Source: Thermogutta terrifontis (GTDB taxonomy: Bacteria; Planctomycetota; Planctomycetia; Pirellulales; Thermoguttaceae). Taken from it: a DNA stretch of 64,000 bases. Shown here piece by piece: positions 57,868 through 64,000 of this stretch. Under the pieces are notes generated by a model that was given only the letters and a program-made list of their open reading frames with translations, ran no database searches and was not told the origin of the DNA. The DNA lies in NCBI RefSeq assembly GCF_002277955.1, contig NZ_CP018477.1:4051206-4115205 (forward strand), given 5' to 3'. Numbering within the stretch: position 1 is the stretch's first letter; each line of letters opens with the position of its first letter. Both the position numbers and the translations under genes were made by a program.

Positions 57868-58308
57868 ATGAACAGTGAATTTCGACCACGTGGACTGATC
57901 TGGGTAACTTTGCTGCTGTATTTGGGCAGCACCGGTCTCGTATTTGAACACGCCGCATCGGTGACCACGGCTCTCCCCATTTGCGTAACGAGGCTGCTTG
58001 AAAAAGATCATTTGCTTTTTGAATGTCAGGAGTCGTGTGGTTCTGGCGAGAAAAACTCGGGACGTGCGTGGCAACGGGCCGTGGCCGCGGTAGGTCAAAA
58101 GCAGTTTGCTGATCGAGATGGGGTAGATCGCGCTCATTGTTCCTGTACATGTGGCGTGTGTGTGGTGGCCACATGCCTCTATACTCCCGCGGCGGCTGCA
58201 GCAGTGAGCTTTCCCCTTGAAATCCACTGGGCTCATCTCGTCTTGAGGGAGCGACGCACTGATATTCGAGCCGAAGAGCTTCTGCGGCCTCCACGGTCTC
58301 TTTTCTGA
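57868..58308 (+). CDS. Possible small secreted Cys-rich protein of the metal efflux locus
   Basis: This 146-codon frame (ATG at 57868) begins with a signal-peptide-like segment (GLIWVTLLLYLGSTGLVFEHA, about residues 8-28). It contains a cluster of cysteines near residues 91-101 (HCSCTCGVCVVATC) and ends with RPPRSLF. Small exported Cys/His proteins with similar endings often precede heavy-metal efflux operons. It lies 378 bases before the first adaptor gene on the same strand. Against it: no good ribosome site, and no family match. Presented as tentative. Confidence 0.4.
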   Translation: MNSEFRPRGLIWVTLLLYLGSTGLVFEHAASVTTALPICVTRLLEKDHLLFECQESCGSGEKNSGRAWQRAVAAVGQKQFADRDGVDRAHCSCTCGVCVVATCLYTPAAAAAVSFPLEIHWAHLVLRERRTDIRAEELLRPPRSLF

Positions 58309-58685: not shown

Positions 58686-60272
58686 GTGACCGAGAAAGCG
58701 ATGCCATCGGACTCATCGGGGACTACGGTTCGACGATGGGCTTCCCGAGTGATGCGGGTGGCACTTCATTTGCTCGTACTGGGAGGCCTTGCCGTCCTCG
58801 GAATCTGGGGCCATGAGACGGGATGGCAATTTCAAATTCAATCAGCACAACCACAGCAGCCCAACGTCACGCGATATGCAGAGACCTCGCGGCTTAAGGT
58901 GCACTGGGTGCCTCGCGACGTTTTGGCTGCGAAATACTGCGCAACTCATGCCCTGTATTTGTGTCCCTGTCCGGGCCAGGAAAAGAGTTCGCATGATCTG
59001 CACACCCACGCTCAAGGTCAGCCCGCGCCAGGTCATCCGGACCCTTTCCAGACGAACGCACACGGAGCCGACGCTGACCCGCCCGCGTGGGTGGGAGCTA
59101 TTCTGGAGCTTGAGTCCCCTGGCCAGTTGGAGGGACGCACCATTTCGACGGAAATAGTCACGGCCCAGCCGTTTCGCGAAGTGGTGCACGGCTACGGACG
59201 ACTATCCTTTTTTCCCGCCGATGAGGCGGAGCTGAGGACGCCCCTGTTCGGGACAGTGTGGCAACGACGAAAGAACCCGTATGAGTGGGTCAACGCAGGG
59301 GAGGTCATCGCGCTGATTGATTCCCCGGAATTGGTTCGATTGAAGGGGGAGTATCTCCAGGCCTGGATCGAGCACAAAACAGCCAAACAAAAGGCGGAGA
59401 GCCTGGCGCAGGCACCTGTTTCGCATCAGGAAAAGCAATTAGCGGCAGCGGAGTTGACGGAAGCGAACCTCCGGCTCCGGGCGGCCGCGGAAACCCTCAT
59501 CAGTTACGGTTTCCCGCGTCCCGATCCTTTGCCCGACACGGAAGACTGGACCCAGGTCCGCGAAGGCCTGTGTTCGCTGGGTTTGGAAGATTGCGGGCGA
59601 GAGCTGGGTGACAGTCCTCCGGCCTCTTTGCTGCCGCTGCGGGCCCCATTTTCTGGTATTCTGGTCGAATTTCCCGTGACTGTGGGGCAAGTGGTTGAAC
59701 AAAACGCGCTGGTGTGTCGTTTGGTGAACCCGGCACGGCTGCTGCTTGTGCTTTCCTTACCAGGAGAGGACGCTGTTCGTGTTCGTCCAGGCCAAAGGGC
59801 GGTCGTGCATACCGAGGGGTCACAAAAACCAGAAGAAGGCTCCGTCGTCTGGATAGAGCCTGTGGACAATCCTGACAAAGCTAAGGTCTCTGTCCATCTC
59901 GAGGTGAAAAACCAGCAAAAAATCTTTAAGGCGGGTGCCTGGGGAGAAGCGGAGATCCTCGTCGGCGAGGCGAGTCAGGTTCTGTGTGTGCCAAAAGAGG
60001 CTCTCCATCGCGATGGGGCAGCGTGGTGTGTGTTTGTGGTCGACCACAGCTCCGGGGAACCGCCAGGAGGAAAACGTTTTCAGGCTCGCATGGTTCGGGT
60101 GGGCAAGTCGTGGGGAGATCGCTGGCCAATCGTCGCCGGGATTCTGCCAGGGGAACGCGTGGTTGTGCAGGGAAGTGACGTGCTCTGGAATGAGCTACGC
60201 CACATGCTAACTTCCCGGTCTCAGCAGGATGGAGAAGGTCGCGAACGCCTGGCAACCGGCGAGACGGACTGA
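58686..60272 (+). CDS. RND efflux periplasmic adaptor with His/Cys-rich N-terminal segment (first of two)
   Basis: The 528-residue protein is a membrane fusion (adaptor) protein of the CusB/CzcB type that links an RND pump to an outer-membrane channel. After an N-terminal helix (ALHLLVLGGLAVLGIWG) comes a metal-ligand-rich stretch at about residues 81-130: KYCATHALYLCPCPG, then HDLHTHAQG and NAHGADAD. The adaptor core follows, with a lipoyl-like half (TPLFGTVWQRRKNPYEWVNAGEVIALIDSPELV), a helical hairpin, the second half (LRAPFSGILVEFPVTVGQVV) and a beta-barrel (VRVRPGQRAVVHTEG). It starts at a GTG; an ATG at 58701 is also possible. The second adaptor begins 17 bases downstream. Confidence 0.88.
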   Translation: MTEKAMPSDSSGTTVRRWASRVMRVALHLLVLGGLAVLGIWGHETGWQFQIQSAQPQQPNVTRYAETSRLKVHWVPRDVLAAKYCATHALYLCPCPGQEKSSHDLHTHAQGQPAPGHPDPFQTNAHGADADPPAWVGAILELESPGQLEGRTISTEIVTAQPFREVVHGYGRLSFFPADEAELRTPLFGTVWQRRKNPYEWVNAGEVIALIDSPELVRLKGEYLQAWIEHKTAKQKAESLAQAPVSHQEKQLAAAELTEANLRLRAAAETLISYGFPRPDPLPDTEDWTQVREGLCSLGLEDCGRELGDSPPASLLPLRAPFSGILVEFPVTVGQVVEQNALVCRLVNPARLLLVLSLPGEDAVRVRPGQRAVVHTEGSQKPEEGSVVWIEPVDNPDKAKVSVHLEVKNQQKIFKAGAWGEAEILVGEASQVLCVPKEALHRDGAAWCVFVVDHSSGEPPGGKRFQARMVRVGKSWGDRWPIVAGILPGERVVVQGSDVLWNELRHMLTSRSQQDGEGRERLATGETD

Positions 60273-60289
60273 AGCGAGAGGCGGGAAGC

Positions 60290-61942
60290 ATGAAACTCCA
60301 GCACAGTACGTCCGATTCAATGGGAACCGAACGTGATCAAAAAGCGCGGGTGCGTCAGGCACACCGAAGGCGGACGATCCCGGCAATTCTGAGCTTTGCA
60401 GGACTCTTTATCCTGGGACTGACGATTTCAGCAGTGCTGCTCCGAAGCGGCATCGGCCCCCACGTAATCCGGCAACTCCAGATCGTGGTGACCCGCATAA
60501 GTCACGAAAGGAGTGACGTGGACCATGCACACGGGGGATGGTGCGCAGAGCACCACGTTCCAGAAGAACTCTGTCTGGGGTGTTCACCTCACCTTTGGCC
60601 GAAGCCGCGCTTCGAGGGACCATGGTGTGCGAAACATCGTGTTCCTGAGTGTCCCCTCTGCCATCCTGAGGTCTCTGAACTGTCCACCACTTCGGATGTT
60701 TTGCCGGTAGACTTTGAGAGGGCCTCTCGGGAGTCAGATAGTCCGATCAACCCTGACTGTACCCTTCATCGTCGTCTAGTTCAGATTGCCTCTGCAGACG
60801 TGTTGATGCGATTGGGTGTGGAGGTCGCGCCGGTAACCCGAGGCACGCTGCGAGAGGCCATCGAGGCCCAAGGACGCGTGGAACTCGGTTTCGGAAGCGC
60901 AGTGTGTATTAGCGCACCTTTTTCAGGTATAGTTCGCCACATCACCCGGCAGGAGGGAGATTCTGTGAGAAGAGGTGACCCCCTCCTCGAGCTGGAAGCC
61001 CCTGAGTTGGCTAACTGGCGCGGCGATGGGCGGAAGGCTGCTCAACTGGTGCAATTGCGGCGTGCTCAGATGGAACGATTCACGTCGCTCAAGGGACTCA
61101 CGATTTCAGCGCGCACAGTGGATGAAGCCATCGCGCAATGGGAGCAGGCGTGTTTGACGCAGTGGATCATTCAGGAAAAACTCAACTGGGTTTCCAGGAC
61201 TGCCGCTCAACCCGAGGATGATCCATCCCGTACCACGCAGCTTGGGGTTGGCCCGAGGCCGATGTCGGCTTCTTCTCAGTTTCTTCCCCCAAGCGAACAT
61301 TCATCGGGCGGAGATCCATTGCTGTCGCTTCATTCGCCGTTGGACGGTCGGGTGTTGTCATGCTTTGTGGGCCCGGGGCAGCATGTCGTTGCGGGGCAGC
61401 CCTTGATGACCGTGGGTGATCCAAACCAGCTCATGCTCACCGTGTGGATTCGTCCGGAAGATGTCTCCCGGGTTCGCCCAGGCCAGCAGGTCATTTTCCA
61501 GCACAGTGGTCATGTTACACCGGACAGGGGTGAGGTTGTCGCAGTGAGTCCTTTAATCGACGAGCGCACCCGCTTGGTGGCCGTGTGGACAACGCTGGAT
61601 CCAGCCGAAAAGGAGAATCACGTGGGAACAGCAGGTCGGGCGGAAATTCTCATTGCCGAAGAGCGGGACGTCATCATGGTGCCGGAATCGGCCATCCACT
61701 GGGAGGGTGACTGTTTTGTCGTGTTTGTTCGCGACCTAGATTTCGACCAATTGCCTTACAAAGTCTTCCATGTCCGCAAGGTTCGCATTGGAAGAAAAAC
61801 TTGGCACGGGGGGCAGGAAATGAGGGAAATCCTCGCGGGGCTGCTGCCGGGCGAAGTTGTTGCCACCACTCGTAGCTTTGTGCTGCGGGGGGCGCTCTTG
61901 GAAGAGCGACTGGGGGCCGGTTGCGCCGAGCACAACGACTGA
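60290..61942 (+). CDS. RND efflux periplasmic adaptor with tandem Cys/His motifs (second of two)
   Basis: The 550-residue adaptor follows the first with a 17-base gap. An N-terminal helix (LSFAGLFILGLTISAVLLRSG) leads to two similar short modules at about residues 84-124: WCAEHHVPEELCLGCSP and WCAKHRVPECPLCHPEV. Each places two or three cysteines and a histidine close together, as in small metal-binding modules. The adaptor core then appears (ISAPFSGIVRHITRQEGDSVRRGDPLLELEAPEL; LHSPLDGRVLSCFVGPGQHV; EDVSRVRPGQQVIFQHSG). The core is clearly of the CusB family but differs from the first adaptor, so these are paralogs rather than a split gene. The pump gene starts 62 bases on. Confidence 0.9.
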   Translation: MKLQHSTSDSMGTERDQKARVRQAHRRRTIPAILSFAGLFILGLTISAVLLRSGIGPHVIRQLQIVVTRISHERSDVDHAHGGWCAEHHVPEELCLGCSPHLWPKPRFEGPWCAKHRVPECPLCHPEVSELSTTSDVLPVDFERASRESDSPINPDCTLHRRLVQIASADVLMRLGVEVAPVTRGTLREAIEAQGRVELGFGSAVCISAPFSGIVRHITRQEGDSVRRGDPLLELEAPELANWRGDGRKAAQLVQLRRAQMERFTSLKGLTISARTVDEAIAQWEQACLTQWIIQEKLNWVSRTAAQPEDDPSRTTQLGVGPRPMSASSQFLPPSEHSSGGDPLLSLHSPLDGRVLSCFVGPGQHVVAGQPLMTVGDPNQLMLTVWIRPEDVSRVRPGQQVIFQHSGHVTPDRGEVVAVSPLIDERTRLVAVWTTLDPAEKENHVGTAGRAEILIAEERDVIMVPESAIHWEGDCFVVFVRDLDFDQLPYKVFHVRKVRIGRKTWHGGQEMREILAGLLPGEVVATTRSFVLRGALLEERLGAGCAEHND

Positions 61943-62003: not shown

Positions 62004-64000
62004 ATGCTTGAGCGGCTCATAACATGGTGCCTGCAAAACCGTTTTCTTGTGGTACTGGCCGGAGTTGTGATCGCCGGTGTGGGCAGCTTTTCGCTGCTCC
62101 ATTTGGACGTCGATGCCTTTCCCGACACAACCCCAGTTCAGGTTCAGGTGAACACGGTGGCTCCCGCCCTTGGCCCCGAAGAGGTGGAACGTCAAATCAC
62201 AATCCCGCTGGAGCAGGTATTTGCCGGTCTTCCGCAGTTGCAGCTCCTGCGATCAATCTCCAAGTTCGGCCTTTCCCAAATTGTGCTCACTTTTCGGGAC
62301 GGAACAGACATGAAGTGGGCACGCCAGATGGTCGCCGAGCGGTTGACCATGGTTGAGCTTCCCGAGGGAATCGAGCGTCCCACGCTGGGGCCGATCTCCA
62401 CCGGATTGGGAGAGATCTTCCATTATGTGGTCACCCTTAAGAATTGGGATCCGGCAAATGCCACGCCGGATGAGCGAGTCCAAAAACTCACGTACCTGCG
62501 GACACTCCAGGACTGGGTGATCAAACCCAAGCTGCTGGCGGTTCCCGGCGTGACTGAAGTTAACTCCTGGGGAGGATATAAGAAGCAATACGAAGTCCGC
62601 CCTGATCCCCAGAAACTTCTTCATTTCAATGTCACACTGGAGGACGTCATTCGAGCCCTCGAAGCCAACAATCAGAATGTTGGAGCCGGCGTCGTCCGCC
62701 AGTACGGGGAGAGCGTCTTGGTCCAGGGCATAGGCCGGATTACAAACGAAGAACAACTCCGGCAGATTGGCGTGATTTCTCGAGATGGCGTGCCCGTTCG
62801 TATTGGCGATATCGCCGAGGTCACAGTCGGTTACGAAATTCGCCGCGGAGCGGTTACGGCGAATGGTAAGGGAGAGGCTGTCCTCGGCCTGTGTTTCATG
62901 CTGATGGGAGAAAACAGCCACGAAGTGTGCGCTGCCATTCGGAAACGGCTGGAGGAGATAAAGGCCATTTTGCCCCCGGACGTCGATGTCCACACTGTTT
63001 ACGACCGTACGGAATTAGTCAATTACGTCCTCGAAACTGTGCGGAAAAACGCGTTTGAGGGCGCTCTGCTGGTAATTGCCGTGCTGTTCCTTTTTCTGGG
63101 CAATCTCCGGGCGGCCGCTATCGTGGCTCTGGCCATCCCCCTTTCCATGCTGGTTGCGTTTACAGGAATGCTTAAATTCGGAATCGCGATCAGTCTTCTC
63201 AGCCTGGGAGCGATCGACTTCGGCATGGTGGTGGACAGTTCCGTGGTGATGGTGGAAAACTGCGTCCGCCATGTCGCCAAGGGCGATCTCGGGCGTGGGT
63301 CGATGGTGGATCTCGTTCGGCAGGCTGCCATTGAAGTCCGGAAACCCACGCTGTTTGGCGAGATGATCATCATGATCGTTTATCTTCCGATTCTTGCTCT
63401 CGAGGGGATAGAAGGAAAAATGTTCCGCCCCATGGCTCTGACGGTCATATTTTGTTTGTTTGGAGCCCTCGTGCTGTCTCTGACGTTGATGCCCGTGTTG
63501 GCGAGCATCGTGCTCCCGCACCGCATCCAGCATCGAGAGCCGCTGGCGATCCGCTTGGTGAAGCTTGTCTATAGGCCTTTTCTCAGCTTTTCCACCCATT
63601 ATCCGGGCGTGGTGTTGGCCATCGCGATTCCGTTTGTGGTTTTCGTGCTGGCTGGAATCGGCCCACGACTGGGCAGCGAGTTTTTGCCGAAGTTGTCCGA
63701 AGGGTCTTTTACCATCAATGTGGTGCGGTTGACTGGCACAAGCCTGGAAGACTCCATTTCGCTCAACACACGTATGGAAAAAATGCTTCTTGAGACATTC
63801 CCCGACGAGATCAGGGAGGTCTGGAGCCGCATCGGAACAGCCGAAGTTGCAACCGATCCCATGGGCATTGAACTGACGGATATCTACGTGATGTTGCGAC
63901 CACGTACGCAATGGAAAAAAGCCCGTACCCAAGACGAATTGCGTCAAAAAATCGAAGAAGTGCTGCGCGTCATCCCCGGTCAGCGATTGGCGTTTTCTCA
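62004..64000 (+). CDS. Heavy-metal RND efflux pump, CzcA/CusA-like (partial, C-terminus off right edge)
   Basis: The frame is open from the ATG at 62004 to the window edge (665 codons; full-length pumps have about 1030-1060). The N-terminus (FLVVLAGVVIAGVGSFSLLH) is the first helix, and DAFPDTTPVQVQVNTVAPAL and EEVERQITIPLEQVFAGLP are signatures of the metal-pump branch. Helices 2-6 follow the first periplasmic domain, with the proton-relay region GAIDFGMVVDSSVVMVEN (an aspartate at the usual place, though CzcA has DG where this has DS). The second periplasmic domain begins near residue 560 (GSEFLPKLSEGSFTINVVR). The metal specificity, Cu/Ag or Co/Zn/Cd, cannot be read from the visible part. 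Confidence 0.95.
   Translation, partial: MLERLITWCLQNRFLVVLAGVVIAGVGSFSLLHLDVDAFPDTTPVQVQVNTVAPALGPEEVERQITIPLEQVFAGLPQLQLLRSISKFGLSQIVLTFRDGTDMKWARQMVAERLTMVELPEGIERPTLGPISTGLGEIFHYVVTLKNWDPANATPDERVQKLTYLRTLQDWVIKPKLLAVPGVTEVNSWGGYKKQYEVRPDPQKLLHFNVTLEDVIRALEANNQNVGAGVVRQYGESVLVQGIGRITNEEQLRQIGVISRDGVPVRIGDIAEVTVGYEIRRGAVTANGKGEAVLGLCFMLMGENSHEVCAAIRKRLEEIKAILPPDVDVHTVYDRTELVNYVLETVRKNAFEGALLVIAVLFLFLGNLRAAAIVALAIPLSMLVAFTGMLKFGIAISLLSLGAIDFGMVVDSSVVMVENCVRHVAKGDLGRGSMVDLVRQAAIEVRKPTLFGEMIIMIVYLPILALEGIEGKMFRPMALTVIFCLFGALVLSLTLMPVLASIVLPHRIQHREPLAIRLVKLVYRPFLSFSTHYPGVVLAIAIPFVVFVLAGIGPRLGSEFLPKLSEGSFTINVVRLTGTSLEDSISLNTRMEKMLLETFPDEIREVWSRIGTAEVATDPMGIELTDIYVMLRPRTQWKKARTQDELRQKIEEVLRVIPGQRLAFS

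Follow-up and report, generated by a model that had tools for sequence, protein, structure and literature searches.

Six adaptors sit on an RND pump, distributed over two non-equivalent kinds of site; mostly one protein occupies both, making the roles of the sites hard to separate. The window, a 64,000-nucleotide stretch of Pirellulales planctomycete DNA (4051206-4115205 of a single 4,810,751-base contig), holds two different adaptor genes ahead of one heavy-metal pump and raises the question of what each adaptor does. The initial annotation proposed that both adaptors are CusB-type, that each has its own Cys/His-rich N-terminal segment, and that the two segments load metal onto one pump in sequence. 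The genes for adaptor 1 (A1), adaptor 2 (A2), the pump, and an outer-membrane factor are neighbors on the same strand (Table 1). The spacing of 17 bases between the adaptor genes was given correctly; that between A2 and the pump, first reported as 62, is counted as 61. Reading on past the window, we found no second pump directly downstream of the first. Instead, a TolC-type outer-membrane factor of 487 aa (OEP, 139 bits) lies 148 bases 3' of the pump, followed by a sulfatase-like gene, and the proposal of two adaptors for one pump is borne out. Having the outer-membrane factor in an operon with pump and adaptors is the layout of a tripartite HME-RND efflux system. A search of phage DNA gave no match. 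The small protein upstream had no match in Pfam or NCBIfam; it aligns over its full length with an ORF at the equivalent place in a congeneric genome, G001. By inspection, small Cys-rich ORFs stand just 5' of the adaptor in most of 26 homologous loci, many with a similar hydrophobic tail at the end, e.g., VVLRV or CALLI.

Table 1. Features of the two-adaptor locus, in window coordinates.
Feature	Position	Strand	Remarks
Small Cys-rich protein, accessory gene	57868..58308	+	146 aa; hydrophobic segment at N-terminus; precedes adaptors
Adaptor 1 (A1)	58686..60272	+	GTG start, 528 aa; first-type RND periplasmic adaptor; TIGR01730
Relic of module 2 in A1 (by alignment), CATHALYLCPC	58938..58970	+	C85, H88, C93 invariant (29-sequence alignment)
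Adaptor 2 (A2)	60290..61942	+	ATG start, 550 aa; second-type RND adaptor, tandem Cys/His modules
Module 1 of A2, WCAEHHVPEELCLGC	60539..60583	+	W84, C85, H88, C95, C98 invariant (29 sequences)
Module 2 of A2, WCAKHRVPECPLC	60623..60661	+	C113, H116, C121 invariant (29-sequence alignment)
CzcA/ZneA-like heavy-metal RND pump	62004..64000 (window end)	+	ATG start; 1103 aa; ends at the equivalent of 65315, outside the window

The pump belongs to the heavy-metal (HME-RND, CusA/CzcA) family, scoring 1168 bits against TIGR00914 with a cut-off of 701. Among solved relatives, ZneA (4k0e, E 4e-189) is the best match, with CusA behind it. The fourth transmembrane helix reads IDFGMVVDSSVVMVEN, an IDFGxxVD...EN motif that follows the DFG..VD...EN pattern of ZneA as opposed to the AVG..VD...EN of CusA. 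The CzcA/ZneA-type pattern is linked to divalent cations, not Cu(I), and therefore divalent cations are indicated here. Judged from this motif, the substrate is probably Zn, Cd, Co, or Ni.

Both upstream proteins are recognizable RND adaptors, although they are only 26% identical. They score 105.5 (A1) and 101.5 bits (A2) against TIGR01730 (cut-off 94.9) and exceed the cut-offs of HlyD_3 and HlyD_D23. The CzcB/NccB-type model TIGR00999 gives 98.7 and 84.8 bits, respectively, below its curated cut-off of 319.3, and the CusB model PRK09783 (cut-off 390) gives only 13.8 bits for A2, with A1 absent from the listed matches. The nearest solved relative of A2 is ZneB (CzcB-like, PDB 3lnn; E 2.9e-18). 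Therefore, the assignment to RND adaptors stands, but CusB is not the nearest solved relative, at least for A2. AlphaFold2 models (pLDDT 79 for A1 and 82 for A2) both comprise an N-terminal membrane helix, paired long hairpin helices, lipoyl, barrel, and membrane-proximal strands, where domain names were given from the order of structural elements. Hairpin, lipoyl, and beta-barrel domains, as in the periplasmic adaptors of HME-RND systems, are thus predicted in each protein, all adaptor domains being present in the A1 model. In Foldseek, both models match MexA, AcrA, ZneB, and CusB, and on these predictions neither looks like a remnant.

The N-termini are where the two proteins part. The motifs CATHALYLCPC, WCAEHxVPExxC, and WCAKHxVPExxC, as well as the His run of A1, are present as originally quoted. 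Alignments place a tandem consensus, WCxEHxVPExxCxxC ... CxxHGVxECxxxHPE, at the N-terminus of single adaptors in related planctomycete systems. By pattern count, module 1 occurs in 52/53 and module 2 in 48/53 of these single-adaptor homologues; because of such counterparts, WCAEHHVPEELCLGC and WCAKHRVPECPLC of A2 are not chance. Residues 81-130 of A2, spanning the modules, have block means of about 75-94 pLDDT, and residues 111-140 average 91-94. In A1, the membrane helix is followed by a GHETGW motif (GHETGWQF) and then the full adaptor body. Its segment KYCATHALYLCPC aligns C85, H88, and C93 with module 2 in 29/29 rows and is kept in G001 as CATHAIYLCPC; on this alignment, we read CATHALYLCPC as a relic of module 2. 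The region behind it, residues 96-137, is disordered in the model. The His-rich run of A1 is partly deleted in G001 and, on that comparison, is not a conserved feature.

Most planctomycete relatives have one module-bearing adaptor, then the pump, and usually after it a gene for a small lipoprotein that bears two modules of a similar kind. That twin-module lipoprotein is absent from the window genome, where the best match of its search is A2 itself. No model specific to the Cys/His module exists in Pfam or NCBIfam, and none of the solved structures matches the module or the lipoprotein. A profile built on the lipoprotein matches in 55/392 genomes of the phylum, mostly in adaptor-sized or small lipoprotein-sized frames, making the module a widespread candidate for a periplasmic metal carrier in planctomycetes. 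Three related adaptors (L077:6880-8688, L179:4977-7256, and L172:3642-6371) bear three to six N-terminal copies, the count by pattern reaching six at L077; therefore, the copy number is free to vary. Another related adaptor, CP036351.1:43838-45364, sits on a 70-kb planctomycete plasmid, the one such plasmid in our plasmid search, and for this reason the system may be mobile.

The modules could instead be structural zinc knuckles that mediate adaptor–adaptor or adaptor–lipoprotein contacts, without carrying metal. The fixed Cx2H...Cx2C spacing, the confident prediction of the module region in A2, and a weak match of one six-module adaptor segment to the B-box zinc-binding model (28.8 against a cut-off of 27 bits) speak for such a role, which is also compatible with a heteromeric ring. 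However, the modules are associated with metal-efflux operons, are found again in a free-standing lipoprotein whose position is chaperone-like, and differ in number between adaptors, all of which fits metal capture more readily than a rigid structural joint. We consider the knuckle reading unlikely, though worth keeping in view, and metal loading by A2 plausible from its motifs.

Next to the modules, the recurrence of the pair bears on its function. An initial sample comprised about 50 homologous loci, in which every locus but the window's had one adaptor beside the pump, and an early conclusion that two adaptors are confined to the window's genus was overturned by pairs in wider scans. One of these, run with an alignment query (a single-protein query over the genomes' contigs gave no match), returned adjacent pairs in 7/80 named loci. 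With a first adaptor as query, adjacent pairs appeared in at least 16/397 genomes of the class, in several families. Nearly all pairs are built alike: in the first adaptor, the membrane helix is followed by a GHxTxW motif and the N-terminus is reduced; both modules are present in the second adaptor. Module 1 was counted in 19/20 and module 2 in 18/20 second adaptors; one of them, at L308, was missed because the wrong stretch was scored, and its module is visible on inspection. The search for the module in adaptor N-termini that the initial annotation had called for thus succeeds in single and second adaptors alike. The window pair fits this pattern, with GHETGWQF and the relic in A1 and both modules in A2. 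At four loci of one subgroup (L226, L251, L259, and L262), the second adaptor is separated from the pump by about 3 kb of inserted genes, among them an ABC-transporter permease-like ORF, an arrangement that weighs against a heteromeric ring. Within the genus, the system is patchy, since two other congeneric genomes have no pump of the window's type.

Pump phylogeny ties these loci together. The pumps of the window and G001 are sister to all sampled pumps from two-adaptor loci except that of L249 (bootstrap/SH-aLRT 100/99), and a second pump tree recovers a two-adaptor clade that includes the window's pump with a support of 99. In these trees, one pump clade conserves the two-adaptor arrangement, and the order of the two adaptors, whose conservation had been put up for checking, is kept throughout it. 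L249 stands apart. Its two adaptors are sister to each other (97/90), and on that topology they are a second, independent duplication. At L249 / L298 3632-7085, both copies have two modules, in contrast to the asymmetric pairs.

The adaptor trees are less decisive. The branches of A1 and A2 are at least five times the median (2.3-3.1 changes per column for A1), while the pump branch is not long. With few two-adaptor taxa, A1 and A2 join each other. In the best tree, with many such taxa, A2 groups with all second adaptors (63/100) and A1 with all first adaptors (51/99.8); the bootstraps of 63 and 51 are weak because both branches are very long. Forcing A1 and A2 together as sisters costs 7.8 log units, a difference too small for rejection (p-AU 0.275). 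The profiles give A2 278 bits against second adaptors, 250 against single ones, and 178 against first ones, in line with the best tree; for A1, the scores are 221 (single), 200 (first), and 185 (second), nearer to single than to first adaptors, and do not discriminate. Leave-one-out controls of these profiles were right in 26/26 cases, though near relatives stayed in the profiles. A recent lineage-specific duplication, at one time our leading reading, lost that place when more two-adaptor taxa drew A1 and A2 into separate groups. In that reading, the duplicates would form alternative homomeric rings on the same pump, e.g., under different metals, and never mix. The unrejected sister placement, the smaller trees, and the local duplication at L249 lend it some weight. 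However, with the genes 17 bases apart, switching between A1 and A2 is unlikely. The unequal pair also recurs in the same order across genomes of several families whose pumps form one clade, and A1 and A2 diverge much faster than the pump, which suggests divided roles. We regard alternative rings as rather improbable.

Serial loading, in which the N-terminal segments of both adaptors bind metal and pass it on, would explain why A1 and its G001 counterpart retain C85, H88, and C93 and why A1 has several His residues. By pattern count, however, first adaptors contain module 1 in 0/20 and module 2 in 8/20 cases, and 12/20 have no module at all, so that first adaptors can in general do without a metal site. 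A Cys/His-rich segment of its own in each adaptor, as initially claimed, is not supported by these counts, nor by the partial loss of the A1 His run in G001. With the module relic or gone in first adaptors and the A1 His run not conserved, loading through both adaptors in series is improbable as a general mechanism, and we give it little credence. That A1 is merely a decaying, functionless copy, as its long branch, relic module, and GTG start might suggest, is very improbable given its open frame, its complete predicted fold, its 73% identity to the G001 copy over the ~238 residues present on that genome's contig (the C-terminus of A2 and the pump lie on another contig there, and the junction of the two adaptors is unassembled), and the retention of first adaptors in the whole two-adaptor clade.

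Taken together, gene content, gene order, module loss, and pump monophyly lead us to favor, by a little more than an even chance, a tripartite heavy-metal RND exporter with a ring of two different adaptors, in which A2 captures metal and A1 is structural or activating. Because the unequal pair recurs with the same pump branch in many related bacteria, the pump probably uses its two adaptor slots for different tasks. Analogy is the basis on which we infer the stoichiometry, the binding of metal, and the split of roles. In TriABC, both adaptors are needed and have unequal roles, and a 3:(3+3):3 model is supported (PMC4338810, PMC13328181). If TriABC and the two non-equivalent adaptor sites per RND protomer are a guide, A1 and A2 would form heterodimers, placing three of each on the pump trimer. 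In Cus, metal is handed from CusF to CusB within the complex (PMC6235853). The modules of A2 would lie near its membrane-proximal end, take up periplasmic metal, and pass it to the pump, doing the work of CusF plus the CusB N-terminus, while A1 would occupy the other site as a structural or activating partner. In the window lineage, A2 would work without the separate twin-module lipoprotein present in most relatives. More tentatively, and with somewhat less than even confidence, we suggest an obligate 3+3 mixed ring with a metal-capturing arm at one position only, the arm being the tandem Cys/His module also found as a free small lipoprotein, and the whole being the first system of the heavy-metal RND family to use two adaptors; a literature search that covered few subscription papers found no other in that family. 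A conserved clade with different proteins apparently at the two sites, one of them bearing a metal-ligand arm, would make each site genetically testable in a metal pump.

Among the closest known systems is TriABC-OpmH of Pseudomonas aeruginosa. TriC is a drug (HAE-type) pump, and we know of no metal modules in TriA or TriB. The window pump, by contrast, is of the heavy-metal family, its second adaptor is ZneB-like, and the two members of its adaptor pair differ in that one has lost a metal-ligand module. What the two loci share is a pair of different adaptor genes with one RND pump; TriA and TriB are 36% identical, and both are required (PMC4338810, PMC13328181). In pump and second adaptor, the nearest relatives are instead the ZneCBA and CzcCBA systems of Cupriavidus metallidurans: the pump is closest to ZneA (4k0e), with the same acidic motif in TM4, and A2 to ZneB (3lnn). 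ZneCBA and CzcCBA have one adaptor only, and they lack the tandem WCxEHxVPExxCxxC module of A2.

CusCFBA of Escherichia coli, in which the pump receives metal from its adaptor and from a small periplasmic protein, is a functional parallel. It handles Cu(I)/Ag(I) through Met ligands with one adaptor, and CusA has AVG at TM4 where the window pump has DFG. The planctomycete twin-module lipoprotein may, by analogy, play the part of CusF, although the window genome does not have this possible counterpart. The single-adaptor planctomycete RND systems (L072, L074, L183, and others) share with the window the pump family, the tandem module, and the small Cys-rich ORF upstream, and they differ in having one adaptor and a twin-module lipoprotein 3' of the pump. 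A two-adaptor RND pump is therefore a known kind of system; what is new here is its occurrence in the heavy-metal family, its conservation within a clade, and, as the alignments indicate, the asymmetric loss of the metal-ligand module.
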